Assembly (NCBI GenBank): GCA_037576215.1
Contig: JBANDB010000012.1
Span: 2,790,001-2,854,000, forward strand
Length of the DNA: 64,000 bases
Source: Armillaria gallica
Taxonomy: Eukaryota > Basidiomycota > Agaricomycetes > Agaricales > Physalacriaceae
Direction of reading: 5' to 3'
Shown here piece after piece: positions 2,573 through 63,644 of the stretch (the stretch's first letter is position 1; each line of letters begins with the position of its first letter). The notes under the pieces are model-generated. The model was not told where the DNA came from and ran no database searches. It saw nothing but the letters and a program-made list of their open reading frames with translations. The translations under genes and the position numbers were made by a program.

Positions 2573-3376
2573 TCAAGCACCGTATAGGCCCGACCAGCCT
2601 TCAGCTTCAGATGGCTGAGCGTACATCGCATCCCCATAATCCTGGTATTCGAAACCTTCATTCGTCGCGCCACCCTCTAGTGGACCAGCATAAGGCGAAT
2701 TAACGAAGTAGTTTCGGAAGTAACCGTTTGAGCTGAAGCCTATGGTCGGAGTGGTATCGAGTTGAATAGCAGATGAGGTACTGGCAACAGAAGGAGAGGG
2801 AGTGGATGGAGTGAGAAACGTTCCTCCCGTCGCCGGACAAAATGACGGTTTCGTAATCGGAGGACGTGTGGTTTGGGGAGAATGGACTATTGGCGTCGTT
2901 GAAATAGCTCGTGACGGCACTGGGGGAAAGGCTATTACTGCCCGGATTGAAATAGTCCAAAACAGTCCACGGCTCCAGAATTGGATACCAATTATCGGTA
3001 GCGATATGCTCGTAAAATCGGGCTTCACAGGTGCAACGTTGCGTCAGAGTTGTCTGCAGTGAACGTAGCTGTGACTTCGAGATACGGCGTGGAGAGGAGA
3101 GCAAGCATACCCTTTGGACATACGCGGCACACTGATTCGCGGGATAATGATTGACGACGGTCGAAACATAACCAGAATGCGCGTGGATACCGTGTCCACA
3201 CACAACGCAGATGTTCTGGGAGAACGTGAGCACGGGAACATAGGTGAAGGTGAACGAGAGCCTACCTGGTCTAGCAGGGGCGACTCGGGTGGGAAGAACC
3301 ACAGACACTGACAGTGCTAGATGTCGCCGGTGATCTGGATGCACTGCCCTCTAGACGGTAAGACAATTGAAGACAT
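2573..3376 (-). pseudogene. IHAHADY family copy A (broken)
   Basis: Three exons line up with intact copy B: exon 1 3266-3376, intron 3216-3265 (50 bases), exon 2 3111-3215, intron 3054-3110 (57 bases), exon 3 2573-3053. Exon 1 starts MSSIVLPSRGQC but carries an in-frame TAG at 3317-3319, about codon 20. Exon 2 is open and carries VCGHGIHAHSGY and NQCAAYVQ. Exon 3 begins with CTCEA, then loses two bases near 2813-2820 relative to copy B. The original tail, ending WSGLYGA, continues in another frame to 2573. With a nonsense codon and a frameshift, it is very probably a pseudogene. Splice sites are all GT-AG. Confidence 0.8.
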
Positions 3377-5475
3377 CGAGGAGGCGCTGAGTGCAGCACT
3401 GGCAGGAGAGAAGGCAGTAGAGATTTGGGTTCGTCTTGGTGCATTTTATACGAGTAGCGAATCCAAATACCGCCAAAGCGGTCCGCTTATTCGATAATGG
3501 CGGCGAGGGAGTGAAGCATGTAAAACGGCGAGCTATACCCTGAGCAGATCCACCCTGAACGTTTTTTTTTAAAACAAGTACCCTGATATCCTCGACCCTG
3601 GCAGTGTGATCTAATAAAAAGGCGAAAAAGGGCGCGATTTTCTTGGCTTCTTTACTTATCTCCTTTTGGCTTGAAAGGTTTATGTAACACGGCACACCCA
3701 CCTCATCAATCCAGGTTTTCCAGTTTTCTCATCTCGTCATCATCTCATCATTACACGGCACGGTACCTTCAGGAAACTTGCTGAAGCGTTCAAACGTTCA
3801 TATTTCAAATACCTACCACCCATAGTGATGGTCAGCAGGAGGGCTACGAGGTCGTTCGCGCAAGCCCGCACCATGATACCAGTCCGCTCTTTGTCTGTTC
3901 GCTTGGTCCTCGTCTCGTCTCTGTCAAAGCTCCGTGAATCCGTCCATTCTTTCAAATTTCCAAGATTGATTTCATCTCAAAAGGTCCGACTCTTTGGTCC
4001 GCCCTCTCGGTAAGTTTGCTCAGCTGTTGCCAGCGATGGACCTCAACTTTCTGTCACTGTCAGAATCTTTTCGTCCGTTTGCCCGCCATACGCTCGTGTC
4101 GTTCCTCATCGGCACGCGGTGTAAGATCTCAAAGAAAGCGGCACTCTCTCTCCTCATCGAAGCCCGCCTCCCCCGTCATGATCATGTGCAACCTACACAA
4201 CCTTCCACGCCATCATCATCCGAATATAGCCCCCACCAAGACCTCACATATCGGAATACTGTCTTTCACTCAGACTGGAAGTTTCTCTACAATGGCTACG
4301 GAGGGTATGGGCGACATATCGGGGCTTTGGAGGGAGGACGCAGGATGCTTGATGCTCGACACTGCCAGTATCTGATGCTTCATTTTCACGAGCAAGGCAC
4401 CGTTGTCCATATATGCCATTCCGATTTTTTCTCCCCTTCAATTGTTACAGAGATTGGGAGGGATTAACTGCCCCTATCCTCGCTCGTTCGTCTTCCGTCC
4501 CAACACTCTCTATCCTTTCTCTTTCAGGATCTCATCTTGCTTCAAGTCATCCACCGACAACTGTAGTTACTTTCCAGAATAGGTTGTCAATCCATCAGCA
4601 CGACATCCAGATCTATCCTGCCATTTCTCGTGACCTCTCTTCTCTGCTTCGCTCAAGTCGCTTTGTAGAGGTACGACTGTGTCTGTTATCGATGAATTCC
4701 AATAGCCACATGAGCGACCTTACGTGCTCAACATGACCGGCAGCATACTTGTCAGCGTTGTTTTCAAATAGCCAAGTCCTCTATCTACACGATAGCCCCC
4801 CGTTTGGAGACATATCACACGAGTCCGCTGGACTTGGAATTGGATATTTACCTGGCGATGGCACAGGCCCATGTCTATCCTGCGGATCATCCTTCCTTAT
4901 TGGATCAAAGCACTTATCAAGGAACAGCTCCGCCCAGCTTCCGGTCCTCCAAGAAAAGACTCCTGATAGGACTAACAGCACTCCGAGTCTACATGTCCAT
5001 GCAGATGACAGCCCCAGCTAAGGCATCATTCGTTGAATGAACCCTGGGATTAATTTGACCCACAGCGACAGATATCATCCTCGGGGTCATGGCAGTCCAT
5101 CGAGGTGATCCAACTCGAAATGCACCATCTCACTCTCTGATGTGACAAAATATCCTACTCGTTCCGGTGCAGTATGTTCGGCGTCTGTTGCCGCGTTTCT
5201 CTCGGTGATGACCTATTTCCAGAAACAGTGGATTGTGTGGATGGCGCTGCTTTCGTGTATGTTCCTTGTCGACGCCGCTTATTCACCCCCATATACATAC
5301 GGAGTATTGCCGATTCAGTCTTGACACATCGAATACAGGAATGTACATGCACGGCGCTTCTGGCCAACCTTATCCTCGTTGGCAATGCGTATCGTTGAAC
5401 GTTCACCTATTACTCTACCTTATAGCCTGGACTTGAATATGTCGCATCGTTCTACATGTCCCGATCTGAATTGTC
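3377..5475. other. Upstream flank of copy A and unassigned sequence
   Basis: Just upstream of copy A, 3377-3460 matches the 5' leader of copies B, C and K, including a TATA-like 'gcattttatacg' near 3440. Beyond that are several plus-strand open frames; the largest is 3994-4467, 157 codons. I recognise no domain, no consistent splicing and no duplicate elsewhere in the window, so I do not call a gene. Confidence 0.4.
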
Positions 5476-5814
5476 TCAGATCTCTCTAGCGAGCCCATAA
5501 TTGCCGGGCAATGCAGCGGTCGATCCTAGGGGGACAGGACAGCCTGTCCTCATAAAGGCTTCCGTAGAGGCATCCGTGTGCCGGTCCTCTGGCACGCGGC
5601 GGGTCGATGCTGCTAACCACTGATAATCCTGGTCAGTGGAGGTGCGCGAGCTTACTTCGATGGGGATGATGTCTTGGTTGACTGACCCGTCGGTATCGAA
5701 GCGTGTCCGGAAGGATTCGGAGGGCGGCTTGTGTCTTCTCCATTTCCGGAATGCGAAAGCAGATGAGGATCTGGATGCGAGGCAGACGATCGTCTCTCCA
5801 CTGTGATCATCTTC
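5476..5814 (-). other. Open frame without a start codon
   Basis: A minus-strand frame stays open for about 110 codons but has no ATG near its start, so it could only be an internal or terminal exon. Its translation is charged and Ser/Thr-rich and contains FRKWRRHK followed by ESFRTRFDTDG. I recognise no family. It may be part of a broken gene or a chance frame. Confidence 0.2.
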
Positions 5815-15701: not shown

Positions 15702-15721
15702 AGGGCAGCCCTGTATCCTCC

Positions 15722-26191: not shown

Positions 26192-26249
26192 TGTTAATAA
26201 ACATATTTATTCATCGTCTCAAAGACTCATCTAACTAAACAACTTGACT

Positions 26250-30535: not shown

Positions 30536-30582
30536 CAACACTGCATACACTCCTCACGTACCTGCAGTCCTATTACCCATTA

Positions 30583-30680: not shown

Positions 30681-30683
30681 TAG

Positions 30684-38696: not shown

Positions 38697-39418
38697 AGTG
38701 AGCGCTCTCTTGGGGATGGAAGCTGGATGGAAGTCAATAGAGGCTCGTGTGGGCGTATTTTTATGCGTCCAATTTAAGGAATGAACACGTATGGCAATCC
38801 AATTCGGTTGTGGGTACAAGGATACTTGCAACGTGTCCTTCCCGTTGAAACAGTAGTTCCTTGAAATAGACTCGACTCGATTAATCGATTTAGGGAAATG
38901 ACATGATCGACGTTCAATCAGATTCAATCGTGATCGACAACAATTGTCAATGGCTTCGCGATCATTTCGCATATCTCTTAGATCATGATCCGGGGCGATT
39001 CAGGCACTCACAGGCACCTATCGACTTAAAATTTTTACCGTAGCAATTCCATTTTGTCTCGACTCCGTCCGCCTTGCAGATTCTCCTTCTAACCTCCAGC
39101 TGGTCGCTTAAACTCCACTGCCTCGCGAACAACCGGGACCCCTATCGCTACCGGACCATGCAGGGCATGACTCATTACGCCTGGTATCGACTTCTACTGT
39201 ACGACCATAGGTTCAAATAGTCGGGTCCCGATGAATCTGTTTGTTGTCATCCAACTTAGTTCTAGTCAGATCTGCCTCAGATGAATACCGCGTGTGGTAT
39301 GGACGTGGATTCTACCTGTAGGCTGTAATCAGTTAAATATTTGTGCACATCCTCGTATTTCCTGGAGGTACCCGATTTCCTTCCCTGGTCATCAAATTCG
39401 GCGATCACACACATAGTA
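38697..39418. other. Spacer upstream of copy D
   Basis: Contains the leader and TATA-like region of copy D and otherwise no gene I can support. Confidence 0.4.
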
Positions 39419-39609
39419 AGTATATATTTCAACTGGAAGTTGAAATATCGACACGATCGGCAAAATTTAGGTTGCGCGATCATCAATCGTGGTCGATCCT
39501 TGAAAGTCTCATCCAGGAAACAAACTCGAAGACGACACGGCATGATTATAGATACATGGATAGATAAGCCAACGACAACAAGAATGTCGAGAGGACGTTG
39601 TTAGAAGGT

Positions 39610-40870: not shown

Positions 40871-42420
40871 TTATACTCATGCCCTTGACAATCGTATAAG
40901 ACCCAAGAGAGCCAGGAGCACCGTCGAATGCCTCTCTGAAATGTTATCTGAGCCCATCCCGAGGCTGGCTACTTGGTTAACAGGCCGTGCTCGTTGCGTT
41001 GTGTAATGGGATAGTCACTGGCCGAGGCCTAAGAATATGTACTATTAGAATTAAATAGATTTCCCATAAATACAGAGCACGGAAGTCTAACCTCCTAAGA
41101 CTAGTTTTCATAAGCCGTCAGGTACCCACCGGGTTACCAGGTCGCCATAACAAAGAAAAAAACGCCGAGATAGTGGTATATGGGTCAATCGTAGCCTGTC
41201 GAACGCGGCACTACCATCCATGTCTTTGCGGATTCTACGTCCCGTCATGAGTGAAGCTGGTAAACCTTGAGCGGGCCCGCTTGCCGATGTAGGACTAGAA
41301 TCTGAGCGATGTTTTGGTCTCTCAAATTCATCGATCCCCACGAGCCTGCTCCAACATTTTTCCAACCTCCCAAAATTCAAACCATCATGACTGTTCGTTC
41401 TTTGATCTGGACGCTTGGGGTTAGCTGTGAACGTTTTGAACATCTCAATGTTCAGTCAAACGAACACCTCAATGCAGGCTGCACCTCTGAATAAATCAAA
41501 AACGACGTTCGAATTTGACGCCCAAGTTCCTTTCAAGCTCATCGAAATTCCAGCACCAAATTCGTCACAAAAGCTGGTCCTACTCTCTTGCCAAAGTCAT
41601 CCTTATCGATGATACTTCTTGGTTAGGTTGCAGTGCGTAGAATCGTTCCGTGACCGAAATGGAGACCTCCGGATGGGTCATGATGGCTAACGAAAGAGTT
41701 CTGTCGGCAATTCCCGTGGGTTTTCCATCTCGACATCTCATCTCGCTCGATACCTGATTCTCGTAGCCTCTAGTCAGGCCCAAGATAACGTTGCAGTGAC
41801 AGTCTTCAGGCATATTCGGCATAGCCAGTATACCGTTGTATCATCCAATCGACCGGAAGACCGTCCCATCCGTGTGTCTGATACCAACAAAGGGTGCACT
41901 GCTGCCACTGCACCATGCCCGCCATGATTCCCCGCTACTATCTAGCCATAGGATATTGAGATCTGGTGATCATTGTAGTGACGACGTGCTGAAGATGTGC
42001 TGAAGACCCGGTGGACCGCCTCCTTGGACGCTACGATTACTTCCTGTGCTCCAGCAGGCCCGCATACGGTACGAGCACCGTCGCATTACACACCAACGTC
42101 GACCGCCGTCTCTTCCAATCTCGTCGATTACCCATGGGCGGCGCGATGATGAAACACAACCTTTACCGCTTATCGATGAGGTTTATTTTCGATCGACGAC
42201 ACTCGGGTCATTGGAGCGACTATCCTCTTCGTAGTGTGTATAAGGATACGAGAAGGTGTCATCTCACCAATACGGTCCGCATTGCAGTGTTAACTGACAT
42301 GCATCTTCCAGATTGAAACTATGGCGATAAGAAACAGGCCCAATCTTCGTCAATCGCTATTCATTCCCAGGATCAGTGTTAGCACTAGTGTCTCCAGTCT
42401 TTGGACCGCCCTCCATACTC
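40871..42420. repeat. Triplicated block, copy 2
   Basis: Matches 1-1480 and 52,930-54,440, including the open frame with FEFDAQVPFKLIEIPAPN at 41,415-41,612. Small indels and substitutions separate the three. Confidence 0.8.
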
Positions 42421-42639
42421 GCCATTGGCAGTGACGGTATACCACCCGTTCGTCTTATCCCTCACTTACTACAGCAAGAACGCGCGATTACCTCTTCGTA
42501 GGAGCTCAGCTATCCAACAACCTCACACGTCGGAACACCATCTGCGTCCCAGGATATTCCCATTAACCGCTACGAGGGACCAAATACTGCCATCGTTGCT
42601 TTGGACGGCGGATTCCGGAGAATTCATTTGGATTGTCCA

Positions 42640-43085
42640 CGAGTCAGCCAGGCGGCATCGTCTACGCTTCTTTCAGAATCTTTTTCGCTCCCGTACTGCA
42701 TTGTATCTCCTTATAGACCTTGCGCAATTCCAACCAACGCGTCACATTATCATCCAAAGTCTCGTCACCGTCTCTTCTGACAACCTTCACACTTTGCTTA
42801 GGCTGATCCGCTACATTCTTCTAATACCTCCGAATTGGTCTTGAAATCTACAAATTTCCAGTCGGGCGCAGATGTCAATTCCTTGAATATCGCTGGTTTG
42901 GCATTCCTGCACGCCCTCCTGACTTTGAGTCCTATGCGGTTGTCCTTGACCAGTTCTACACTTGATGCTTGATGTATGATAATGACAACCCGTGGCCGTG
43001 CCCTTGCGGACCATCCGGGAATCAACCGCCGGAACCATCTTCTTTTCTCAACCTGGAATAGGCTCGACTTTTGCAGTCTTCCCAT
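42640..43085 (-). pseudogene. Unrecognised gene remnant, copy 2
   Basis: Two frames show coding-like conservation with 54,700-55,157. One has VELVKDNRIGLKVRRACRN and VDFKTNSEV (42798-43085); the other has LDDNVTRWLELRKVYKEIQ (about 42,700-42,770). Stops and frame changes break both copies. I do not recognise the family. Confidence 0.4.
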
Positions 43086-43456
43086 CTTACTGCCAGGGAT
43101 GCTACCTGCATGCTTTATCTCACATAGATTCCGGCTATTAGTCCATGTTCGAGGTCGTACTTAGGCTTTAGCATAGGTGTCAATGATAATCAGTGATATA
43201 ACGACCACCAAATGATTGTCCAATGAAATATACATCAATGCTGAAAGGATATTCAAAGCGATATAGACAACAATAGAGACGAAGAGACGAAACTACTATT
43301 TAAAATGTACAATCGACCCAGGAGCAAGAGTGATTGGTTGAAAGTATGGATTTACGGATGGGTTCATTTTTCAGGAACGGTATAGGATAGTGATCAGCAG
43401 GAGTTTTGAAAAGGGGAAGAGACTGACAGACACTTGTAACTGGGAATCATCAATAC

Positions 43457-44179
43457 CTAGGCGTAATTACCCGCCCAGGCTTCGCCTTCAGGTGTCGCGT
43501 TATAGGCGTCAGTCGGATGGTAAACAAAAGGCCCATTTGGGGCATCACCATCTGGCGCATATCCCTGAGGGTGGTGCGCGACAAATATTTCAGCTTCCGC
43601 CTGAGTATAACCAGGTTGATTGTGTGAAAGGGTATTGGTATTGGACGAGGGGATGGGAGCGAACAGGATGAGGTTCGCGTCATTGAAAGCGAGCGTGTTC
43701 GTACTGTTAGGGGATCCGATACTATGGCCATCGCCCACGAAAGGCTCTCGAGTATTGGTGACGGCAGTAGGCAAAGAACGATAGCCGTTGACGACGGGGA
43801 CATGATCAATGAGAAGTGCTCCACACGTGCATTCCTGTGTCTGAGGCGTCTATATTGAACGTGCTGCATCAGTGTGTTGTAATATAAGGGCGGAGGGGGT
43901 ACCTTTTGAACGTAGGCCACACAATAATTAGTAGGGCAATGGTGGACGACGAGGGAGAGGTAGTCGGCATGGGCGTGAATGCCATGGTCGCAAACACAGC
44001 GGGACTGGGAGATTGTGAGCATGTGTATGAGAAATTTGGCAGAAAAGCGTATGCACCTGGTCTAGAGTATGCCATTGAGATTGATCTCGATGGGCAGTAA
44101 AGCGTGAACACAGGCAAAAAGCATTGCCAGTGTGCTCGACGCATCTTCCTCTAACCGGAGGTCGGGCTACTGAAGACAT
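43457..44179 (-). CDS. IHAHADY family copy E, 205 aa, intact
   Basis: Exon 1 44057-44179, intron 52 bases, exon 2 43903-44004, intron 53 bases, exon 3 43457-43849; GT-AG, phase 0. It belongs to the second subgroup. Exon 1 has VRGRCVEHTGNAFCLCSRF followed by HRDQSQWHTLDQ; exon 2 has SRCVCDHGIHAHADY (C-x-C rather than C-x2-C) and HHCPTNYCVAYVQK; exon 3 begins QECTCGALLIDH and ends PEGEAWAGNYA. A clean TATA box, CTATAAAAG, sits about 46 bases upstream of the ATG. No signal peptide. Predicted metal-binding protein of unknown role. Confidence 0.82.
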
Positions 44180-45865: not shown

Positions 45866-46641
45866 TCAGGAGGGGGGATATGCGTACGGACCTATATATG
45901 GTGCACCGTTTATCCCGATTGAATGACCTTGGTAGTCATAATAACCTTCGGATGCGTGGTGGACGGCGAGGGCGCCAGCCAAGTCATGGACCACGGACGC
46001 ATCGTCTGATTTCTGGTGAGAGACAAAAGCGTAAGCATCGCTCTGGGATAAATGGGAGATACTGTTGAAGTGAAAGGGAACGGTAGCGGAGGCAAAGAGC
46101 ATGGTATTAGGGTCGCCGGAAGTAGTGGAAGGAATGGGTGCCGGGGAGATGGCGAGTGTAGCGTCACCGGTGGCTCTGTTGGCAGTAAAAGAAGGGAGGC
46201 TGTTGAGATTGCTCGTGAGGGGAGCCGGACCGTGAGGCAGTGCGATGGAACGGTAGGCATTTACGATAGGCTCATGGTCAAAAAGCTGTACGGAGCAAGT
46301 ACACGCGTGTGATTTATGCGCCTGCAACGTGAATAGGGTGAGTCATAAGCAGAATAACACAGAGTGACAATGAACACCTTTTGGGCATAGGCCGCACAGT
46401 GAGTAGCGGGGTTATGAAAGACAACCTTCGACTCATAGTCAACGTGGGTATGAATACCATGTCCGCATTCGACACAGTTGAGCTGAGAGAATGTGGTTAT
46501 CAAGTGTGTTGGTGGTGTAGAAAGAGGGTTTACCTCCTGTAAGGGCAGAGAAGGGGCGTTGAACCATGGGCAGTGACAAGGTGCGATCCCGTCAGTGACA
46601 TGAATGCATCTTGCTCTGGGAGGTAAAACTGTTAGAGACAT
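45866..46641 (-). CDS. IHAHADY family copy F, 222 aa, intact
   Basis: Exon 1 46534-46641, intron 51 bases, exon 2 46378-46482, intron 56 bases, exon 3 45866-46321; GT-AG, phase 0. It belongs to the third subgroup: PPRARCIHVTDG and PCHCPWF in exon 1, NCVECGHGIHTHVDYESKV and NPATHCAAYAQK in exon 2, HACTCSVQLFDHEP at the start of exon 3. The tail is Ala/Ser/Pro-rich and ends in a Tyr/Gly-rich stretch (YYDYQGHSIG, then YIGPYAYPPS). Closest relatives in the window are copies G and J. Role unknown. Confidence 0.8.
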
Positions 46642-47465: not shown

Positions 47466-48248
47466 TTAAGAAGCAATGACGATGAAATAAAGGAAAGGAA
47501 CTGGTACGAACGTGGCTGTCATCATTATTATGCGTCGTAGTCTCGATGGACTATTGGTGGGGTGGCTACACGTACGCGCCTGCAGATGGTGCACCGTCCA
47601 TCTCAAATGAATGTCCTTGGTAATCATAATAGCACTCGGGCGCGTGGTGGATGGCGGGGGTGCCGGCCAAGTCATAGACAAGGACGCGTCATCTGATTGC
47701 TGGTGAGGGACAAGAGTATAAGCATCGCTCTGGGAGAAACAGAGGACGCTGCTAGAATGAAAGGGAACAGTGGCTCCAGATGTGTTGGCGTTAGAAGGGG
47801 TGAGACTGCTCGTGAAGAGAGCCGGACTGTGAGGCAGAGCGATTGAATGAAATGCGTTCACGATAGGCTCGTGGTCGAAAAGCTGTACGGTGCAAGAACA
47901 TGGCTGTGATTGATGCGTCTGCACGAGTGGAGTGAGTCCCAGATATGACAACGAAGACTGGTAATGCGTACCCTTTGGGCATAGGCCGCACAGTAAGTGG
48001 TGGGGTTATGGAAGACGACCTTTGACTCGTAGTCGACATGAGCATGGACACCATGTCCGCATTCGACACAGCTGAGCTGAAAGAACTTTCCAGGTGTTAC
48101 ATGAGTCAAATGGTCGTAAAGACAAAGAAACTACCTGATTCAACCAGGGTAACGAAGAAGCAATGAACCATGGACAGTGACAGGCAATTGAAGTTCCGTC
48201 AGTCAGCTGGATGCACCGTCCTCTGCGAGGTAATATTGTTTGAGACAT
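47466..48248 (-). CDS. IHAHADY family copy G, 223 aa, shifted C-terminus
   Basis: Exon 1 48135-48248, intron 58 bases, exon 2 47972-48076, intron 53 bases, exon 3 47466-47918. Exons 1 and 2 carry the full motif set (RRGRCIQLTDG, CHCPWF, CVECGHGVHAHVDY, TTYCAAYAQR) and exon 3 starts QPCSCTVQLFDHEP. Relative to copy F one base is missing near 47,680, after DDAS. The tail therefore changes frame and the protein ends with about 75 unrelated residues instead of the short Tyr/Gly-rich end. The core is intact and the ORF is open, so it may still be expressed. Confidence 0.72.
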
Positions 48249-50055: not shown

Positions 50056-50759
50056 CTACGCCCAAGCTCCACTTTCAGGCGTCGCGTCGTAAATGGCATT
50101 CAGAGGATAATCAAAGGTGCCGTTCGGCGCGCGGTCGTCTGGCGCATAACCCTCAAGGTCATGTGCGACAGCTTCGGCGCGACCGAGTTGGATTTGATTG
50201 TTTAGCGAGGAAGAAGGGGAGGCGAATAGCATGGGGTTCGCGTCATTGGAGGAGGCGGACGCGTTCGTCGCGTAAGAGGACGTGCCAGTGCCATGATCAT
50301 CGCCCACAAAAGGCTCTGGAACATTGGCAATGGGTGAACGATAGGCATTAAAAACTGGGACGTGATCCACGAGGAGTGCCCCGCACGCGCACTCCTGCGT
50401 CTTAGGCGTCTAAATTGAACGTATTGAATTAGTGCTTCTCGTAGGGTGGGGGCGGAGGAGATACCTTTTGAGTGTAGGCTACGCAATAATTGGCGGGGCA
50501 ATGGTGGAATACGAGGGAGATGTAGTCCGCATGCGCGTGAACACCGTGTCCGCAAACGCAGCGCGGCTCGGGCTAAAAACCTATGAGCAGGTATATAAGA
50601 TGCAAGACCGTGAAGCTTATGTACCTGGTGTAGGGTGTAGCGCTGCGATTCATCTCGATGGAGAGTGAAAGCAGTGAAGCTTGGGCACAGGCAAAAGGCA
50701 TTGCCAACGTGCTGGACGCATTGTCCTCTGACCGGGGATGCAGGTGCGAAGGACATCAA
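50056..50759 (-). CDS. IHAHADY family copy H, 198 aa, intact
   Basis: Exon 1 50625-50759, intron 52 bases, exon 2 50465-50572, intron 55 bases, exon 3 50056-50409; GT-AG, phase 0. It is closest to copies E and I: SPVRGQCVQHVGNAFCLC in exon 1, PRCVCGHGVHAHADY and HHCPANYCVAYTQK in exon 2, QECACGALLVDHVP in exon 3, end PESGAWA. A TATA-like GTATATAAGC lies about 56 bases upstream. Two ATG codons stand in tandem at the start. All conserved Cys and His are present. Confidence 0.82.
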
Positions 50760-51392: not shown

Positions 51393-51751
51393 TGTTCCAA
51401 TGAACTGGTTATTGAAAGCATAGCAAGCGCAATGTGAGAGAACGGGACGGAAGTAGAGGCTCGTCTTGGCATAATTTATACGTCCAAAGAGTCAGACCCG
51501 CAGAGATGGAAGCAAGTTTGGCTGTGATACAAAGTCAATGCAGTGACGCGGAAAGAAGGTATATATTTCATTTGGAAGTTGAAATATCGACACGATCGGC
51601 AAAATTTAGGTTGCGCGATCATCAATCGTGGTCGATCCTTGAAAGTTTCATCCAGGAAACAAACTCGAAGACGACACGGCATGATTGTAGATACATGGAT
51701 AGATAAGCCAACGAAAACAAGAATGTCAAGAGGACGTTGTCACAAGGTTCG

Positions 51752-52870
51752 TCACTTTCCTTTCCCATTCGACTTCTTTCCATTCTCCTTCGACTTGCTG
51801 CTTGACTTGCCGCTCGACTTGCCGCTCGACTTGGACTTCTTAGGACGATCGGATTCCGAATCATCACCCCCGTTAGCTTGCTTGGCCTCAGCTCGCTTCA
51901 GATAGCTGTGAAACATCCAGATAAGTCACGGCCGACCACGACAAAAGAAAAGCACCCACATTTCGCAGCCTTCCTCTCAAGCTCATCCCAATCGTCACCT
52001 TCATCACTATCGGACCTCTCACCAAAGTCTGACCTGCTCTCGCTTCCGCTAGCATCGGAGTAGGCGCTCTCTTCGTCGCTGCTGCTAGACTCCATTTCTA
52101 GGCCCCCAGTTCAAGTTCACAGGACCGTCAGCCATAGGGACATTAACAGAGTTAGTTGGATATCAATGAACATAAAAGAGCAACGAAGCACAACAATTCA
52201 CTCTAGCCAGTTCTTGACGACATCCATCTGTGAACTCGGTATTAAATTAATATGCAAGGGCGCCTTGTTGAAGTCTTTGAAGATCAACACCAGATCGAAT
52301 TGCTTTAAGCTGTACTGAACACGTTCCAGTGATACGACCTCGATATCAGCCAAAGTAACGACGAGGAATGGTGAGTCTGTCAGATGCACGAGACATTCTG
52401 TCGTGGGCTGGCGGTATGGTCTACCTTCAAAGGATAGCTCTCGGAAGGGAATGTCGAGTTCTAATGTATCTACAAGCTGTGCGGATGTCACGTAAACCGC
52501 AGATGTTCAGTTGGAACCTGCGAGACTCACCGCTATTGACCCAGCTTAGGCGATGTTCTATGCAAATGCCTTAACTCTTCGTCGAGTGCCTATCGCCTGT
52601 GGCTCCATCTCGATTTCGTCTTCATCACCATGCCTGTGCTTCCGCTTACATGTCGTCGGACTGCGCATCGGTGGCTTCACGGTAGAATTGAACGTCCTAA
52701 AAGTGAAAATTACATTGCGATTGTATTCAGTATCTCGCCAACTTACCAACGCCTTTTTCTTCCCTATCGTGGAGGGTGCCTTGAGGTAAACGTGCATGAT
52801 AACTAATTTCAGGTGTTTCTGGGCCTCTTCTCCAGGAGGAGTTATACTCATGCCCTTGACAATCGTATAA
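51752..52870 (-). pseudogene. SPT16 (FACT subunit) 3' fragment, copy 3
   Basis: Matches SPT16 C-terminal exons: [133 protein letters not shown] and KRAEAKQANGGDDSESDRP. The segment with GGWSFLG present in copy 2 is missing, and a one-base shift after QSDD breaks the frame. The tail, unlike copy 2, has no premature stop. The gene's 5' part is absent. Confidence 0.82.
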
Positions 52871-54440
52871 CCCAAGAGAGCCAGGAGCACCGTCGACTGC
52901 CTATCTGAAATGTTATCTGAGCCCATCCCGAGGCTGGCTACGTGGTTAACAGGCCGTGCGTCGTTGCATTGTGTAATAGGATAGTCACTGGCCGGGGCCT
53001 AGGAATATGTACTATCAGGATTGGATAGATTTCCCATGGATACAGAACACGGAAGTCTGACCTCCTAGGACTAGTTTTCATAAGGCGTCGGGTACCCACC
53101 GGGTTACCAGGTGGCCATAACAAAGAAATAAGCGCCGAGATAGTGATATATGGGTTAATCGTAGCCTGCCGAACGCGGCACTGCCATCCATGTCTTTGCG
53201 GATTCTACGTCCCGTCATGGGTGAAGCTGGTAAACCTTGGGCGGGCCCGATGTAGGACTAGAATCCGAGCGCTGTTTTGGTCTCTCAAATTCATCGATCT
53301 CCACGAGCCTGCTCCAACATTTACCCAACCTCCCAAAATTCAAACCATCATGACTATTCGTTCTTTGATCTAGACTCGCTTGGGATTAGCTGTGAACGTT
53401 TGAGCATCTCGATGTTCAATCAAACGAACACCTCAATGCAGGCCGCACCTTTGAATAGCTCAAAAACGACGTTCGAATTTGATGCCCAAGTTCGTTTCAA
53501 GCTCATCGAAATTCCAGCACCAAATTTGTCGCAAAAGCTGGTCCTGCACTCTTGCCAAAATCATCCTCATTGATTATGCTTCTTGCTTAGGTTGCAGTGC
53601 GTAGAATCATTCCGTGACCGAACGGAGACCTTCGGATGGGTCATGGTGGCTAAACAAAAGAGTTCTGTCGGCAATTCCCGTGGGTTTTCCTTCTCAACAT
53701 CTCATCCCGCTCGATACCCCTCGATGCCCGATTCTCATATTCTCGTCAGACCCAAGATAACATTGCAATGGCAGGATCCAGGAGTATTGGGCATAGCCAG
53801 GACGTCATTGCAATCATCCAATCGAACGAAAGACCGTCCAATTTGTGTCTGATGCCAACAAATGATGTACTTTGTACCACGCACGCCATGTTTTCCCGCT
53901 ACTATCTGGCCATAGGATATCAATGTCTGTGATCATCATTGTGACGGTGTGCTGAAGATCTGGCGGACCGCCTCCTTGGATGTGCTCCAGCAGACCCGCA
54001 CTACGGTACGGGTACCGTCACATTATACGCTGTCTCTTCCAATCGTCGTCGATTACCAATGGGCGGCGTGACGATGCAACACGTATTGACTCCACCCTCG
54101 TAGTCTCGTTACCATCCTATATATGAAAGCAAGCTATCGGCTTGCCGCATAGAAGGGACTATAGACACCCCGGTCATTTGGAATGAGTATCTTCTTTGCA
54201 GTGTGTATAAGGATACGAGAAGGTGACGTCTCACCAACATGGTCCGCATTCAACATCGCGGCAATAACTGACATGTGTCTGCTAGATTAAAATTATGGCA
54301 ACAAGATAGATAGATAGATAACCGGACAAGTTCCCAAGAAGCAGGCCAAATCTTGATTGCGCGCCATCTCAAGATCTCAATCTTCGTCGATCACTATCTA
54401 TTTCCAAGATCAGTGTTAATACTAGTAACTCTAATCTTTG
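52871..54440. repeat. Triplicated block, copy 3
   Basis: Matches 1-1480 and 40,871-42,420. A short (gata)n microsatellite occurs near 54,306. Confidence 0.8.
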
Positions 54441-54699
54441 GATCCTGCCATGATTGGCAGCGACGGTATATTCCTGTATGAGACTTCCGCGCCATACGTT
54501 CGCATTGTCCTTCATGTACAGCAAGACCGTGCGATTCCCTCTCCATAGCAACTCAGGTATCCCGCTATAGTATAAGTACGGTACCGACCTCACACGCCGG
54601 AACACTATCTACGCCTCAAGATATTCTCATTATCCGCTAAGTACAGAGAGAGAGACCAATTACTGCCGTCGTTGCTGATGAACCACTGATCGCGGAGAT

Positions 54700-55157
54700 T
54701 TCATTTTGACGTTTTTTTTTTGCCCCAGGCGGCATCATCTACGCGTCTTTCAGAACCTTTCTCTCCCGTACTTGGTTGTATCTCCGTATAGATCTTGCGA
54801 AATTCCAACCAACGCGCCATATTGTCATCCAAAGCTATTCTTCGGCGCCTTCACCGCCTCTTCCAGCAACCTTCTCACTCTGCTTAGGCTGATCCGTAAC
54901 CTATCCGCTTCGACTAACCCCTCCAAATTAGTCTTGAAATCTACAGATTCCAGTGGGGCGCTCATGTCGATTCCTCCAATTTGCTGGTTCGGCATTCCTG
55001 CACGGCCCCCGGGCTTCCGGGTCCTACGCGGTTGTCCTTGACCAGTTCTACACTTGATACATGTTGTCTGATGATGACAATCCATAGCTGTACCCTTATG
55101 GACCATCCAAACTGTGAGTCCAATCCGGAGAAGGTTCGACTTTCGTAGTCCTACCAA
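54700..55157 (-). pseudogene. Unrecognised gene remnant, copy 3
   Basis: Partner of 42,640-43,085, with DDNMARWLEFRKIY and VDFKTNLEG readable in different frames. Frames are broken by indels. Confidence 0.4.
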
Positions 55158-55614
55158 TTTACCGCTGGGGGTGCTACTTACATGTTAACATTTCGCATAG
55201 GTTCCAGCTGCTTGTCCAAGTTCGAGGACGTACCTTAAGCATTAGCGTACATCAATGGTAATCAGTTATATGGCGACGAGTGCATAAGGCTTGTTCATCT
55301 TAAATCTCTGATAAATTATGTATCAATTCTCAAAGTATACTCAAAGCGACATAGACAACAAGACTCAATAAATATACAATAGACGAAGCTGTGAAACTGG
55401 AATCCAAAATGTATAAACGATCGGGCCAGAGGCAAGTATACGTACGGAGTCAACTGAATGATTGGTTGAAAGGGTGGGTTTACATAGGTGGATGAGTACA
55501 TTTTCAGGGAATGCATATGCTGACACTTGATATATGACGACAATGGCGTAGAATAGTGTTTAGCGGGAGTTTTGAAGAGGGGAAGAGACTGACAGATGCT
55601 TGTGACTGGGATCA

Positions 55615-56333
55615 TCAATAGCTAGGCGTAAGGACCTGCCCGGGCTTCGCCTTCGGCTGTCGCGTTGTATGCGTCAGTCGGATAGTAGTCAAAGGCCCCA
55701 TCACCATCTGGCGCATATCCCTGGGGGTGGTGGGCGACAAACATTTCGGCTTCCACCTGAGTGAAACTAGGCTGAATGTGTGAAAAGGTATTGGTATTGG
55801 GCGAGGAAGTGAGAGCAAACGGGATGAGGTTCGCTTCGTTGGAGGCGGATGCGTCGATACTGTAAGAGGATCCGATGCTATGGGCATCACCACGAAAGGC
55901 TCTCGAGTATTACTGACGGCAGTAGGCAATGAACGATGGACATTGGCGTCGAGAACATGATGAATAAGGAGAGCCCCACACGTGCATTCCTGTGTGTCTG
56001 AGGCGTCTAGATTGAACGTCCTCCGTCAGTGTTTGTCGTAATATAAGGGCAGATGGGGATACCTTTTGAACATATGCCACGCAATGATTAGTAGGGCAAT
56101 GATGGACGATGAGGGAGAGGTAGTCGGCATGGGCGTGAATGCCATGGCCGCGACACACCGGGACTGAGACATTGTGAGCATGTGTATGAGAAATTTGGCA
56201 GAAAAGTGTATGCACCTGGTCTCGAGTATGCCATTGAGATTGATCGGCCAGTAAAGCGTAAGCACAGGCAAAAAGCATTGCCAGTGTGCTCGACGCATCG
56301 TCCTCTAATTGGAGGTAGAGCTACTGAAGACAT
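55615..56333 (-). pseudogene. IHAHADY family copy I (several frameshifts)
   Basis: Aligned with copy E, exon 1 (from 56333, MSSVALPPIRGRC) has a 5-base deletion after FT, and exon 2 has a 1-base deletion in the Cys motif. Together they restore the frame, giving SRPVPVCRGHGIHAHADY with one of the paired Cys lost. Exon 3 then gains two bases (ACACACAGG) before CTCGA, and loses one in VGDGH, so the tail is out of frame (ends KPGQVLTPSY). A TATA box, CTATAAAG (56379-56386), is kept about 46 bases upstream. Confidence 0.75.
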
Positions 56334-56799: not shown

Positions 56800-57452
56800 A
56801 GGCGCGTGGGCCTGCAGATGCGCACCATCCATCCCAATTGAATGTCCTTAGTAGTAGTCATGATAACTCTCTGGCACGTGGTCGTCAGCCAAGTCATAGA
56901 CCAAGGATGCGTCGTCTGATAGCTGGCGAGAGACAAGGGCGCAAGCTCGCACTGGGAGAAGCGGGGGACAGTGTTAGAGTGAAATGGAACGGGTACGTGG
57001 GAAAAGAGCACGGAATCCCGGTCGCTGGCAGGTAGTATTAATGGAAGGAAAGGGGGTCGAGGTTATAGCAAGGGTTCCAGTGTCGCTGGAGGGTTCGGTG
57101 ATGGTGCAAGTACACGCTTGAGATTGATACGCCTGCAATGCGAATAGCGTGAATCCCAAGTGGAATAAAGCAGACTTGCAATAGGCAGCCTTTGGGCATA
57201 AGCCGCACAATGAGTGGTGGGGTTATGAAAGACGACCTTCGATTTGAAGTCGACATGAGCATGAATACTGTGTCCACAATCAACACAGCTGAGCTGAGAG
57301 GACCGGAGTGTCATATAAATGTATTGGTCGTATACTAAACGGAGAGCCTACATGATCCAACGAGGGCAACGAAGGAATATTGAACCAAGGACAGGGACAG
57401 ACTACAGTCACGTCGGTGACATGGACGCATCGTGCCCTTGGGGCAGGTATTC
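56800..57452 (-). pseudogene. IHAHADY family copy J (broken)
   Basis: Closest to copy F. About 20 bases spanning the expected ATG are deleted, which fuses the leader to the coding frame (TVRIPAPRARCVHVTD). Exon 2 (57189-57293) keeps CVDCGHSIHAHVDF and THCAAYAQR, but its donor GT reads CT. Exon 3 starts QACTCT at 57132 and then has a deletion over the VQLFDHEP region and several stops. It could only make a truncated protein from an upstream ATG. Confidence 0.75.
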
Positions 57453-58939
57453 TTACAGTGCGCTGTGAGAGGGTGCCACTGGGGAAGCCAGGGTTTCTGC
57501 CGGGCTTCATGGCTATCGATCGTTCTTTCATGATGACGATATTTCTAAGTGCGGTTGCCGTTTCGCTCCCATTTTGGCAGTCACAGTCCAGCAGAGTGGG
57601 TATCACCGGGCGGAGTTTGTATCTTGAACCCAATCTTGCCTCCCACACAACTTTGCAGTTTCTCGATCACAAACAAACCACAATTCGCGCTTCTCAACAT
57701 CAGAATGGACGACATGCACCTCAAACAGATGCGCAAGGCAACGTCGTTCATCCCCACCAGAATAGCGACAACGAGAAACCATCAAGTCCCTGTCTAAGCA
57801 TACCAGTTGTTTCTGGTTCCGGGCACGTACGTACTACTTACTGCCACCCATTAGCTGCTAGTTACGCTAGATTATTCCATCCACCGATCCTCGGCAGTTC
57901 AAATGCGACTACGAACGGAGCGGACAAGGGCAGAAAATTGCTCATAGATCAATGTTACTCTATCGTGCATACTTCGCCAGTCCGAGTGACGTTCCCTCGG
58001 TGCCATCCGTATTCCAAATCATTCCACACGGTCAATACTGAGAGACTTCCGTCTAGTCCATTCATATCCCTTTCACTTTGTGCTCTGTCTGTACTGCGGC
58101 GATGGCCTTGTACATTGAATGCATTTTTCGGACGTTTTACCGTACATCCATCGCCATTTACATTTCAATCAATCACGCTTCTCCCACGCTTGACAGTGCG
58201 TTGCGTATATGTACCAGATACTGAATACCGCACTACATCATGTCTGTGCATCTTTTATACACTTACAGCTCACCATTCTCTCCGCGTCTTTTTGGCGTCT
58301 TTGCTATGTTTATTATTTGACTAGTTTCAGAAGATATTCCAGCTCGCCGTTGGCCGTACGGCGAGGTCTCGATCCTGTAAGCGCAATCAACAATGTCGTC
58401 TGCGTCTTATTTGTTGGAATAGCAGATAACTATTCGAGTTCTGGAAGAAAGCAGCTACACAGGTCCATAAAATGGAGTTAGTAGACCGGGGCAGGAAAAA
58501 AAACATCGCTATTACTCCGCATCTTACCGTTGTTCCTCTCACTACCCATGGGTGGCTTTATCACCACCTTTTCTACTGGCAAGATGCGCGACGCCACCGG
58601 TCCTGACGACGCGGATGATGGAGACGAGAAATGTGATTGGTGGTCATACTCGCTTCTTTAAGTCCTAGCAGTAAGCTTCCTGTCTTCCTACTCGTGCCTC
58701 GATTTTTCTGTCGTCCCTGAAATTTAATTTAAGTTCAACTAGAAACCTGACGATTGGTCGAATCCGCTATATACAAAACAATAGCAACACGACGCCCGAT
58801 GCTGCGATTATCGAATACGCGGACAGCCTTCGCTTGCTATTTTCAGAATTGCTACTCAACTACTTGGACCTCGTAAATGCGCCAAGACGAACCCAAATCT
58901 CCATCGCCTTCTCTCCTGCCAGTGCGGCGCTTAGCGCCT
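57453..58939. other. Unassigned stretch between copies J and K
   Basis: A 314-codon plus-strand frame (57380-58324) crosses this stretch but overlaps copy J in antisense and shows no domain, so I do not call it. The last 70 bases match the leader of copies A, B and C. Confidence 0.4.
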
Positions 58940-59900
58940 CACCCCCAGGAAAATATATCCAGGTCCGGCATCTGTCACTTCCGGGGTCTATGGCTCTTCC
59001 CTCCCGAGCCGCCTCTGCTAGACCATGTACTAGATTCTCACTTGCAGCCTTCATACCCAGATTCTCATACTTATTGTGCTCTCCCAGACCATCTGCACTC
59101 TGTGCGGACACAGTATTCAAGCGCATGTCGACTAAGTTTCGATATTCATTCATCAGTATCCCACAAATCAATGTGCCGCGTATGTCCAAAAGGAATGGAT
59201 CTCCCCACTCCGTCCAATATGTATTACCAAATTTGTCGGAAATGTCCAAAATAGGTTATAAGGACATATAAGGAACAAGTTTCCGGCTATAAGGTCCTTA
59301 TCAGACATTTTTGGGATAATAAGCCCCATTTCGAGTCATTTTTTGCCGAGCTTGTTCCTTATATGAGCTTATATGGTGATTATTTGGCCGGCAGATTTTC
59401 GGAACTTTCCGACAAACGTGGCCTCGTAGACGCCTCTGGTTCAGCGTTGTACGTGTGAAGCATAGCCTTGTGACCACACCACTAATGTCAATACCCTGTA
59501 CCATTCTGCAGCGCCATGGACGTTTTGGATTATTTCCTGGACAGCTATAGCTCGAACAGCTCTTCCCACTACGCCACAGTCCATTCACTCCGAAAACCTC
59601 GTCCTTTTCCTCCGATTCCACCATTCGTGCCAAATTCTCCGGCGGCTATCTTTTCCCCTGGTTCCCACCATTTGTTTAACCCTTCTGATAATGCGGGAAA
59701 CATGATCGTTCCCATCGCTCCCACACCATTTCCTTTCCTATCAGCAACACTTATCCGCTGGTCAGCTGGACATCACTCGGACCCCTCAGACGGCTATTTC
59801 CTCAACTTCTCCTGTACTTGTCAGCCGAGCTATGAATGCCAAGATTGTCCAAATGCGACGTACGGTCCGATGCCCGAGGCTTGGCCGGGCACGTACACTT
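58940..59900 (+). pseudogene. IHAHADY family copy K (broken, with MITE)
   Basis: The leader matches copies A-C, but the ATG and about 20 bases around it are deleted. Remaining exon 1 reads GLWLFPPEPPLLDH. Exon 2 has CTLCGHSIQAHVD, then TAA, then NQCAAYVQK, and its donor GT reads GA. A 185-bp inverted-repeat element lies in intron 2. Exon 3 has QRCTCEA, a TAG, and a one-base loss in the LDYF segment. The tail ends MPEAWPGTY, still showing the family end motif. Confidence 0.75.
59232..59416. mobile_element. MITE-like element in copy K
   Basis: The ends are an exact 11-base inverted pair, TTTGTCGGAAA and TTTCCGACAAA. The inverted similarity extends imperfectly inward through 'catataaggaacaag' and its complement 'cttgttccttatatg'. 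Length is 185 bases with no coding. I could not settle the target duplication. It sits between exon 2 and exon 3 of copy K, where the intron should be. Confidence 0.7.
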
Positions 59901-61247
59901 GGTCCACACCCACAACGGAACTTTTCTACAGTCACTCTTCTTATCTTCATCCTCCGAATACTCTGATGTCTTCATTTATGTTTTGCTCATTGCTATGGTC
60001 CTCGCTATTCTGTTTCTATTACTTGGGCTCTCCCTTCCCCAGTCCGGGTCGCAACGTATTTGTTGCAGGCCATAAATTGCCAATGTCCTTCGCCCACTGT
60101 TCTAGTCGTCCACAATTTATTTATTTTTCATCACCTTGTTCATTTACTACCCCCTGTTCACTTTGTAATTATATCCTGTTGCCTCTATCCACGAGATGCC
60201 ATTATGAATTCTTCTGCCTTTCACTTGTGATACCTGTCTGTAACATTGGAATCTATGCGAGCGCGATTGCTGAATTCAGAGGTACTATGTGCATCGGGCA
60301 CCTCGAGGATGGATGTACAGATGCATGTCATTCGACACAGCTCGAAGTTGTGCACAAGAGCAGCTAGTCCTGAGGAATTAACCCTAAGACACCAAGGCAT
60401 AGAGCAGCAGTTGAGGAAATGTAAATGGGCATACATAAGTTGAGTTTTATTGATCGCACTCGCAGACATATTCCTGCTCCTGCTCGGTGAGATAGAGAGT
60501 GACTACTTAGTGGTGTAATCAGATGGGCGAGTTGCATTAAGTATCAGACTCGGTACAGACTGGAGGCTCTAAGCGAAAGCGAAAGGCTTGTGAAGAGACG
60601 TGAAAATTGGAACTGAGAACGGAAGGTGATTCCAGCAATTCTTCCCCGTGACTTCTCTTCCGACCCAATTAATGTTACTAAATTATCGAAGGAGTTCGGA
60701 CCATCCACAAAGCCAACCATAAATCGATATGACATCCATGGGTCAATCGATCATCAGATGGTCGTGTATGCTACAAAGCACTCGTCGACAAACCGGTGCA
60801 GAACTACAAAAAATCTGAGATCTCACAAAAGAGAATATGAAAGCGGTATGTTCGAGGCTATGTAATGCTGTCAGCCTGACTGATAATGATGAAGCTGTAG
60901 TCATTGTAAGACTCATCTTTTAGGGAATGAACTGAGTTTGTAAGTCTCGATTCAGATTCCGATACTTCACTTCGGTGGCAACTGAGGCTGAAAATCTCTA
61001 TTCAAACTCCGTTACATTGACAATTTAAACCCAGAAGACCGCGAGGCGGAATTTGACTGCCATCAAGATCGAGGGCGCTAGGCAAATTTAGGGCCATCTC
61101 AGATCTACTCAGAGTTCTACAGGAAGTTGACCCCGAAAGCTAAGAAGTTTTATTCGCTCTAGGGACTACGCCGCAACGATGGAGATGCGATTCCCACCAA
61201 ACAGCATGACCAAGTTGTGTTTCTCTTGTTGGATGATTATACTCTCG
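59901..61247. other. Unassigned stretch between copies K and L
   Basis: Follows copy K in the same direction. Open frames at 59,516-60,367 (reading through from copy K), 60,246-60,443 and 60,626-60,865 show no domain. Confidence 0.4.
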
Positions 61248-61310
61248 TTATAAACCACTTCACAATGCTCTGGTTCTATCGATCCTGCGTCAGGCAACTT
61301 GCTCTCTACT

Positions 61311-61993
61311 ATGTCCTCAACAGCCTCACCACGGGGACAGTGCTACACATTCTGCCTATGTTCACGCTTCCTTCCTGGTCGTGATGTGAGCCACTATTAT
61401 GACAGTGTCTCCCTTGTTCTAATGATGCCAGGTGTACCTCTGCACGTGTGGGCATGGTCCTCACGCACATATCGACTACATGTCTCCGGTAGTCCACCAT
61501 TGCCCTTCGACTCACTGTGCAGCCTATGCTCAAAAGGTGTTACTATTATCCTCTTCCATATACAAAACACCACTAACATAGTTCGTCTCAGACGCTTCAG
61601 ACACAGAATTGCACATGTGGGGCCCCCCTTTCAGACCATGTTGCTACTGTGAATGCGTACCGATTACCTGCGGCTCTTCCTTACATACCGGAATCCTTAG
61701 TAGATAATATCTGGAATGCTAGCTTCCTCTCCAACGAAGGCGCGGTCAGCCCGCCGGACAACCAGAATATCATTCTAAGCTCTCCGGCCTTTTCCTCTCC
61801 CTCTCACAGCCTCTATCCGTCAGGATCCCAACTCGGCACCCAGGCCGATGTTACTCGTCGTTATCAGCATCTGAACGGTAGCCTCGACAGCAATGCAGCG
61901 AACGGACAATTCTATGGCCACCCAAACGTGATGTATAACGCCACGCCGGGCTCGTCCGTCTGGGACCCCAAAGGACCTCAGCCAAGCCAGTAG
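61311..61993 (+). CDS. IHAHADY family copy L, 193 aa, intact
   Basis: Exon 1 61311-61385, intron 46 bases (GTGAGC...CCAG), exon 2 61432-61536, intron 55 bases, exon 3 61592-61993; all phase 0. This is the shortest first exon of the family (SPRGQCYTFCLCSRF). Exon 2 has YLCTCGHGPHAHIDY and HHCPSTHCAAYAQK; exon 3 starts QNCTCGAPLSDHV and has the motif MYNATPGSSVW near its end, with an extra PKGPQPSQ. A TATA box, TTATAAA (61248-61254), is about 57-63 bases upstream. It belongs with copies E and H but is the most diverged intact member. Confidence 0.8.
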
Positions 61994-63119
61994 CCTTCAT
62001 GGCAGTCTGCTTATCTCTTTACCTTCCATCCTCTAATTACCTTCGTCCTTCTTCTGCCGTCCTCACAACACTCGACGTGTGACTACCAACGCGCTACTCA
62101 CGCCTTACGGGTTTCCAATCGATCGTATGTTCCCATCCACGTCGCTTCCATTTGTGTCGGCGCCGGGCGAGGTTCCACAATTTCTGCGTGCGCTTTGAGC
62201 AGTTGATGGCGGACGATCTATTCCAACTTACCCATTTGATTTTTTTTCTCTTATTGCTTTAATACTTGTTACCGGCTTTGTGGGGTATCATTTCGATTAT
62301 TCTTTGCCATCGGATCGCACGCATATCAAAATATTCTTCTTTCCCTATGTTTTCAATGTCTATACCGCTTTGGATTGCTTGGAATTTAACCGCGTACTTA
62401 GTCTCCACCATGAACAGAAATTCCGTTCTAAATCTACCTCAACGCGATGAACCAACTACTGTGATACGTTAAATAGTGACAAATATTGAGATATATCTCT
62501 AGACATGAGCAACAACCACCAATTTTGAGAAATATCGCATGCACATAACACAAGAAGAAATTTCATTCGCAAAAAATGATGTACCCAACAGCTTGTCCTA
62601 AGATTTTTATCCTATCAGAAAGTATCTTACCTTTGGACCAAGATGGGCCAACAAATTTGAAGCTCTTTGTCACACGACCGAGCTGGCCATCTGGATGCAG
62701 TCAAGTTAGAAAGCAGCATCCCGCTTTGTCCGTCCATCCTCTCTCTTTGGATCCACGTCGTTGCTACTTACTCCTTCACACCTGGTCTGTGGCCGCCATT
62801 CCAACATGGTCCTGTTTTCCAAAGTGGCGATACTAATATCTGGACTCAGACGCCTCTTCGATCTCGACACAATGCTCTTGATGGTTTGTGGTAGCAGGGT
62901 GATGGTCACGGTGCAGCACAGAAAGAGGCGTTGACAAATAATTCAGGAAAATGGCGTGCGAAACACCTCCGTCGTTGTATAATCGTGTGGGATGTCCGAG
63001 ATTTGGATACGGATGACGGGGGCGACATCTATCGAGGATATGGATAGCCTGAGTAGACACGAATCTAGCATCTTGTGATTTAACCCTCGCGTTTACACCT
63101 GTCGTTAGTGTCTTCAGTA
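61994..63119. other. Unassigned stretch between copies L and M
   Basis: Starts with the 3' flank of copy L. Small open frames (62,266-62,472; 62,576-62,836) lack support. Confidence 0.4.
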
Positions 63120-63644
63120 ATTGATAATTGATAATTGGTTGAATGTGTGAAATGGTATTGGCATTGTGGCGAGGAGGAAATAGGAGTGAGAACGGACAGC
63201 ATGAGGTTTGCGCCGTCGTCGTCGGCTCTTGAGTAGTAGGTGAGCGATAGGCATTGAAAACGGGGGCATGAACTACGAGGAGTGCCCTACAGCTGCATTC
63301 ACGCGTCTTAGGCGTCTAGGTTGAACGCACTGCATCAGTGTTTGTCGTAATACAAGGGCGGAGGGGATACCGTTTGAACGTAGGCCACACAATAATTAGA
63401 AGGGCAAAAGTGGACGATGAGGAAGACGTAGTCAGCATGGTCGTGAATGCCGTGGCCACAACACAACGGGACTAGGCGGTTGTGAGCATATATGAGAAAT
63501 TTCGCAGCAAAGCGCATGCACCTGGTGTCGAGTATGCCACTGAGATTGGTCTCGATGGGCAGTGAAACGTAGACACCGAACAAGGCCTGTATTGCTAGTG
63601 TGACGCATCGTCCTCTAATCGGAAGTAGGGACTACTGAAGACAT
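63120..63644 (-). pseudogene. IHAHADY family copy M (broken)
   Basis: Starts MSSVVPT at 63644, but a frame error gives TAG at codon 10 (63615-63617). Exon 2 reads LCCGHGIHDHADY and SNYCVAYVQT in a shifted frame. Exon 3 begins RECSCRALLVVH and is cut off after about 60 residues, with the usual end motif missing. Closest to copies E and H. Confidence 0.7.

Follow-up and report, generated by a model that had tools for sequence, protein, structure and literature searches.

What kind of gene family fills this window, and do its members encode working proteins or only the debris of a region that duplicates itself? The window is the whole 64,000-nucleotide stretch of the Armillaria gallica genome analyzed here (G000:C12:2790001-2854000, in an assembly of 86.0 Mb and 28 contigs), and positions below count from its first letter. 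An earlier note on this DNA had listed thirteen copies, A to M, of a three-exon gene with a fixed pattern of cysteines and histidines. All thirteen were recovered by tblastn of exon peptides, with three copies as queries, and by translation, and their sorting into six intact copies, one open copy with an altered end and six broken ones was confirmed:

2573..3376, minus strand: copy A, broken; in-frame stop in exon 1, exon-3 end altered
5327..5395, plus strand: extra exon-3 remnant (C-x-C ... NAYR), missed by the earlier note; tblastn E 0.001
32971..33785, minus strand: copy B, intact, 236 residues; exons 33785-33675, 33626-33522, 33465-32971
34184..35026, plus strand: copy C, intact, 246 residues, head-to-head with B; exons 34184-34294, 34341-34445, 34502-35026
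38154..38696, minus strand (bounds approximate): copy D, broken; exon-1 end lost, exon 2 truncated
43457..44179, minus strand: copy E, intact, 205 residues, with a near-identical partner (L002) on contig C14; exons 44179-44057, 44004-43903, 43849-43457
45866..46641, minus strand: copy F, intact, 222 residues; exons 46641-46534, 46482-46378, 46321-45866
47466..48248, minus strand: copy G, open, C-terminus altered; exons 48248-48135, 48076-47972, 47918-47466
50056..50756, minus strand: copy H, intact, ending early at GAWA; exons 50756-50625, 50572-50465, 50409-50056
55615..56333, minus strand (bounds approximate): copy I, broken, tandem partner of E; frame lost in exons 1 and 3, exon 2 without its first Cys
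57007..57456, minus strand (bounds approximate): copy J, broken; no start codon, no intron-2 donor, and a shortened exon 3
58988..59977, plus strand (bounds approximate): copy K, broken; exon 1 degenerate, exon 2 with a stop, intron 2 carrying an insertion
61311..61993, plus strand: copy L, intact; exons 61311-61385, 61432-61536, 61592-61993
63187..63644, minus strand (bounds approximate): copy M, broken; exon 1 interrupted by a stop and its frame lost

When the query came from another copy, exon 2 was matched at a best E value of 2e-11 or lower in 12 of the 13 copies and of 4e-5 in D; the window copies are therefore not chance matches. Spliced models of B, C, E, F, G, H and L bear out that both introns are short and in phase 0; all are of the GT-AG type, the first measuring 46-58 nt and the second 53-56 nt. 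The splice junctions of H and L recur in the annotated relatives P0010 and P0036 of other species, which are independent of the present gene modeling yet are predictions themselves.

Each product consists of a core of ~95 N-terminal residues, encoded over three exons, and a tail behind it. Substitution patterns were examined by pairing each of E, F and B with two homologues, the first 100 codons being taken as the core. The ratio of nonsynonymous to synonymous substitution rates (dN/dS) in the core is 0 for E-L002 (where a single synonymous difference is present), 0.13 for E-L003, 0.20 for F-L043, 0.10 for F-L045, 0.30 for B-L044 and 0.16 for B-L046. The tail values, in the same order, are 0.72, 0.77, 0.19, 0.43, 0.59 and 0.84; all twelve figures are rough, as pairs share branches and some copies are mosaic. 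These ratios indicate that the core is under purifying selection and that the tail is weakly constrained. None of the six pairs has an indel in the coding parts, and the ends of both introns are conserved. Every one of the six homologues is open to the normal end, those of F stopping four codons before F does and the others at the same codon. The earlier note had held that ratios near 1 would mark the copies as non-functional repeats, and the core, at 0-0.30 in the six pairs, lies far from that value. Its suggestion of a family under conflict is not supported: no ratio exceeds 1, so no positive selection is shown, no opponent has been identified, and the tail is just weakly constrained (0.19-0.84).

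The same figures bear on the possibility that the family is a passenger or selfish repeat, amplified mainly by a recombination-prone region and a dispersed repeat, with proteins that now have little or no function. Six of the 13 window copies are dead and tail constraint is weak, as that explanation would have it. Moreover, six dispersed copies (L031-L036: two on C18, one on C20, two on C4 and one on C2) lie within one repeat of ~6 kb or more, 89-96% alike, which holds a divergent family gene and two other long frames, the frames scanned having no Pfam match over the cut-off. In three of the six (L033, L035 and L036) the family gene has an in-frame stop or lost ligands. A mere passenger would be hard to reconcile with core ratios of this size, with the absence of coding indels and the kept introns, or with the finding that the six intact copies have best matches of 78-97% identity in other species and that twelve ligands are kept across species; on balance we consider it a rather unlikely account.

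The family is far larger than the "at least 13 copies" first reported. At least 113 places bearing exon 2 are present genome-wide, 52 on the contig of the window (C12), 45 on C14 and 16 elsewhere, and two matching clusters hold 94 of the 113 (50 at C12 2.46-2.89 Mb and 44 at C14 2.15-2.44 Mb). Protein searches with E, B and F gave at least 148, 177 and 150 exon-level matches, respectively; the figure of 113 comprises matches spanning the exon-2 motif, picked by eye, with neighbors merged by script. As this count recovers 12 of the 13 window copies, missing D, the true number should be somewhat higher. Clustering on this scale, with dead copies lying among live ones in the window, supports the earlier picture of local amplification.

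A profile built from seven window proteins and run against 5.8 billion sequences returned 145 proteins at E ≤0.01; among the 120 of these that were listed, 117 are named Armillaria or Desarmillaria and three are unnamed. A search with three divergent members gave 34 matches at E ≤1 among 5010 candidates, and the 29 named ones all belong to the same two genera. Both searches rely on shared five-residue words and on length, such that distant relatives could escape, and among the relatives listed the family is so far known from Armillaria and Desarmillaria only. Inspection of identities dates part of its diversity. The cross-species best matches of the six intact copies, none of which is identical to any of 143 proteins, are much closer (that of L spans 152 of 199 residues) than the other six open window copies are to B (30-59% identical). 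Part of the diversity thus predates the species, and amplification is not purely recent.

Conservation is concentrated in the core. Across 107 aligned relatives, twelve Cys/His positions are kept in at least 94% of the sequences with a letter there: C13 in 98/104, C22 and C24 in 101/103, C44 and C46 in 106/106, H48 in 105/106, H51 in 103/107, H53 and C69 in 107/107, C82 and C84 in 106/107, and H91, the histidine six residues after the exon-3 C-x-C, in 105/107. All twelve are also present in three divergent members chosen by hand. The pattern drawn earlier stands in its three-exon design and fails at the middle histidine of exon 2: this thirteenth candidate, H-x-P-x3-C in most relatives, is kept in only 82/106 and is not invariant. 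Near-invariance of the twelve makes metal binding likelier, and their number is enough for three four-ligand sites; we infer that together they would bind three zinc ions, forming a compact module for recognition.

The core is, as the earlier note supposed, unlike the C2H2, RING and MYND patterns. No match over the cut-off was found in the Pfam, NCBIfam or PDB libraries scanned, NCBIfam and PDB sequences giving no match for the family, and among the 25 of 37 Pfam families inspected over the 107 members no C2H2, MYND or KDZ/CxC domain exceeded the cut-off. A C2H2-type model (ZNF451) at E 0.012 in 1/107 members was counted as chance. One candidate for kinship is FAM221 (PF14753), a poorly known family whose role a highly diverged relative might share. 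Copy F matches its profile across the Cys/His core (residues 8-93, E 0.0035, 17.5 bits), and 5/107 members do so at E ≤1, with a best value of 0.0077. The bit score nevertheless falls below the Pfam gathering cut-off of 25 bits and copy E has no match. Unrelated families score alike, namely DUF1922 in eight members and ferredoxin-thioredoxin reductase in four (best 0.0018), for which reason shared Cys/His spacing explains the match, and kinship with FAM221 appears very unlikely. No published description of the family appears among the literature matches listed. The protein family is absent from the libraries searched and, as far as these go, undescribed; as a kind, namely a clustered, recombining, clade-restricted multigene family, it is familiar.

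The tails are of a different character. In 101 relatives they extend a mean of ~133 residues behind the core, and 85 of the 101 contain no lysine at all. Their composition is 0.16% K, 9.2% D+E, 11% F+W+Y and 40% S+T+P+N, with a mean net charge of -8.8 (range -18 to 6). Base composition does not account for the scarcity of lysine: the tails of B, C, E and F hold one lysine in 539 codons against 11.1 expected from base use per codon position, and 16 glutamate codons against 13.3 expected. With a predicted local distance difference test score (pLDDT) below 50 in ten-residue blocks, the tail looks disordered in the model. Two short motifs recur, each in 41/101 tails: one resembling PWxVLxxF, close to the core, and W[ASPL]G among the 12 C-terminal residues.

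A strong lysine desert in a tail without a predicted fold invites comparison with the ubiquitin system, in which the protein could be an adaptor or ligase-like factor whose Cys/His module binds an E2 or a partner and whose lysine-free tail binds substrates while being itself spared ubiquitination. According to PMC10665810, disordered stretches free of lysine protect the yeast ligases San1 and Slx5 against bringing about their own destruction. The family likewise has a lysine-free, apparently disordered region beside a Cys/His module, and its tails show the long lysine-free disordered stretch that defines a lysine desert, judged here without the length thresholds of that source. It differs from San1 and Slx5 in its small size, in that no RING was found and in that its listed relatives come from Armillaria and Desarmillaria only. 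No meaningful RING, U-box or IBR match emerged (IBR in 1/107 members, E 0.07), and the 12 Foldseek rows include two Prp19 U-box chains (E 4.0 and 5.6) and two unnamed spliceosome chains (7.3 and 8.9), obtained with a model of middling confidence. A ubiquitin role is on the unlikely side, though it ranks second among the readings weighed here, just ahead of a passenger.

A multi-copy family with weakly constrained tails, confined to one genus group, could also comprise secreted or surface effectors directed at a host plant or another microbe, and Armillaria does include tree pathogens. Inspection of the N-termini by eye, such as MSSIVLPSRGQC, nevertheless reveals no hydrophobic signal-like stretch, and twelve Cys/His with CxC and HxH spacing suit metal sites better than disulphides. 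The UniRef name of P0137, "Extracellular membrane prot...", is not backed by any Pfam domain. We regard an effector role as most improbable.

Comparison of B, C and two homologues of B (L044 and L046) piece by piece reveals how heads and tails have been joined. In exons 1 and 2 the proportion of synonymous differences (pS) is 0.12-0.33 between any two of the four, and these exons look homogenized among them. In the second half of the tail, B, L044 and L046 are separated by a pS of 0.02-0.07 only, whereas C differs from these three at a saturated 0.84-0.86 (L046 itself stands at 0.02 to B and 0.86 to C). Over the 28 codons of the core end, in contrast, L046 differs from C at 0/64 nonsynonymous sites with a pS of 0.10, where B and L044 each have a pS of 0.43 to C and 0.54 to L046. 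The first tail half of L046 is intermediate, at 0.18 to C and 0.21 to B. In L046, then, a core end of the C type is followed by a tail of the B type, the changeover lying within the first half of the tail. Recombination or gene conversion would be the natural cause of such mosaics.

Both tandem and palindromic arrangements occur among the copies. The following duplicated structures are present in the window:

33268..34699, no strand: palindrome that includes the 5' portions of B and C, its arms separated by a 33-nt spacer
39415..43735, no strand: tandem block, left unit, leading into E; SPT16 C-terminal scraps inside
39744-40001, 40247-40531 and 40665-40940, minus strand: SPT16 C-terminal scraps of the left unit, the last below the Pfam cut-off
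51554..55891, no strand: tandem block, right unit, leading into I; SPT16_C scrap at 51961-52098

From the center outwards, arm identity in the B/C palindrome falls from 100% (42 nt) to 96% (279 nt) and 82% (379 nt), a gradation that fits conversion spreading from the center. Further head-to-head palindromic pairs occur elsewhere. The L019/L020 pair on C12 has arms of 1163 nt at 100% identity around a 36-nt spacer, with 94% beyond. The L030 pair on C4 has 100% arms of at least 1078 nt, which end at the edge of the locus analyzed, and a 38-nt spacer; in the L040 pair on C11 the five longest of nine arm pairs are 87-97% alike; and another C12 pair near 2.6425 Mb, a candidate palindrome, gives mirror-image match values. 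Different sequences occupy the centers of the three palindromes with spacers of 33, 36 and 38 nt, which suggests separate events. Arms of 100% identity could partly be assembly artefacts, although the 94% outer arms of L019/L020 speak against this for that pair. A further inverted repeat was seen at L003.

The two units of the tandem block are spaced 11.96-12.16 kb apart, and broken C-terminal ends of SPT16, a histone-chaperone gene, have been co-duplicated through the cluster beside the family copies. Those of the left unit match SPT16_C at 2.9e-7 and the Rttp106-like domain at 1.4e-12 in Pfam, and SPT16_C is matched in the right unit too, as well as at other sites on C12 and C14. A presumably complete SPT16 gene lies just past the right edge of the window (G000:C12:2854849-2856559); with the broken ends inside the cluster, its position makes it seem that the cluster has grown from the 3' side of SPT16. 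Two segments near these structures recur as well. The 2.4 kb at window positions 36000-38400, adjoining D, reappear complete or as fragments (69-90% identity) at several sites within the C12 and C14 clusters, and C1 has a single match of 89 bases. The 1.6 kb at positions 40800-42400, beside E, have five more occurrences within these two clusters, at 82-98% over most of their length, and shorter stretches of them lie elsewhere on C14.

The central SPT16 domain (PF08644) occurs at two places only, C12:2856172-2856559, just right of the window, and C14 2183604-2183991. The family copies of the two contigs pair off in reverse order, and E differs from its C14 partner by 11 substitutions in 615 coding bases. 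On these three grounds, C12 and C14 are read here as two haplotypes of one region. The assembly as a whole seems only partly haplotype-resolved, given that of the places with an RNA-polymerase domain one looks paired and two look single.

Taken with the core, the tails and the mosaics, these observations lead us to propose, tentatively and at less than even odds, that the family encodes intracellular zinc proteins that recruit partners through exchangeable tails, perhaps as transcription regulators. The three-zinc head would recognize a partner. The protein would remain within the cell, as the lack of a signal-like hydrophobic N-terminus by eye suggests, and the tail with its recurrent short motifs would serve as an exchangeable recruiting arm, most simply one resembling the activation arm of a regulator. 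Acidic, aromatic, lysine-poor tails are typical of activation arms. Recombination or gene conversion would spread core sequence while the tails differ, so that across the genome a single type of head would be paired with several arms in many combinations.

Several observations weigh against this proposal. The tail composition expected of an activation arm is also that expected of an arm shielded from ubiquitin, each of the two tail motifs is present in under half of the tails, and the six copies within the dispersed repeat also fit a passenger gene. With a mean net charge of -1.7 the core is nearly neutral, unlike most DNA-binding domains, which are basic; this argues against plain DNA binding, such that recruitment by a partner would be needed. 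The AlphaFold2 model of a full-length relative has a mean pLDDT of 51.8 and that of a core-only relative one of 68.7, the latter with ten-residue blocks at 65-82 from residue 21 on, and none of 12 Foldseek rows reaches E 0.001, leaving the core with no solved fold match. The structure models are too weak for any claim of a new fold.

Likenesses to known systems are partial. CxC motifs, multiple copies and Agaricomycete genomes are shared with the CxC clusters of KDZ transposons in mushroom-forming fungi; the family differs in that no CxC/KDZ domain is among the Pfam families inspected and in that the window copies lie within tandem blocks and not inside transposases. The exon-2 H-A-H-x-D resembles the HxHxDH of metallo-beta-lactamases, but its last position is Y, the core is short and Cys-rich, and no such match is among the Pfam results inspected. 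With clustered recombining multigene families it has tandem blocks, pseudogenes, signs of gene conversion and mosaics in common; what differs is that here a zinc-like core is exchanged against a lysine-free tail without a predicted fold.

A bolder form of the proposal, which we consider quite unlikely, is a combinatorial intracellular system, particular to this genus group, in which a constant three-zinc head and exchangeable lysine-free tails would be recombined through palindromic duplication and gene conversion, giving each individual its own repertoire. If true, it could conceivably serve self/non-self recognition or rewired gene control, with copies differing between the haplotypes of one individual. 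Whatever the function, ~100 gene copies, at least some under selection, with a metal-site signature absent from the libraries searched, amount to a large blind spot in honey-fungus genomics. The head/tail mosaics and graded palindromes would provide a natural case for studying how gene conversion combines a fixed domain with a loose tail into new proteins. The absence of lysine from most tails offers a testable handle, be it on activation or on ubiquitin protection.

The remainder of the window contains what look like mobile elements and remnants, classified by eye unless a match is given:

7207-12051, minus strand: long frame, copia-type retrotransposon; direct repeats of 97-99% nearby at 6906-7132/12582-12808
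14145-19543, plus strand: long frame, gypsy-type retrotransposon; direct repeats of 97-99% nearby at 13575-13874/21700-21999
25790-26089/30684-30983: repeat pair (96%) flanking frames at 28846-30329, a recombinase-bearing element; the two frames scanned within 25790-30983 had no Pfam match at E ≤0.5
22117-22968, minus strand: frame resembling a remnant, weakly matching a fungal protein kinase (E 1.5e-4, below the cut-off)
59227..59421, no strand: insertion-like stretch within the second intron of K, with a 25-nt inverted repeat at its ends (80% complementary), resembling a small non-autonomous transposon

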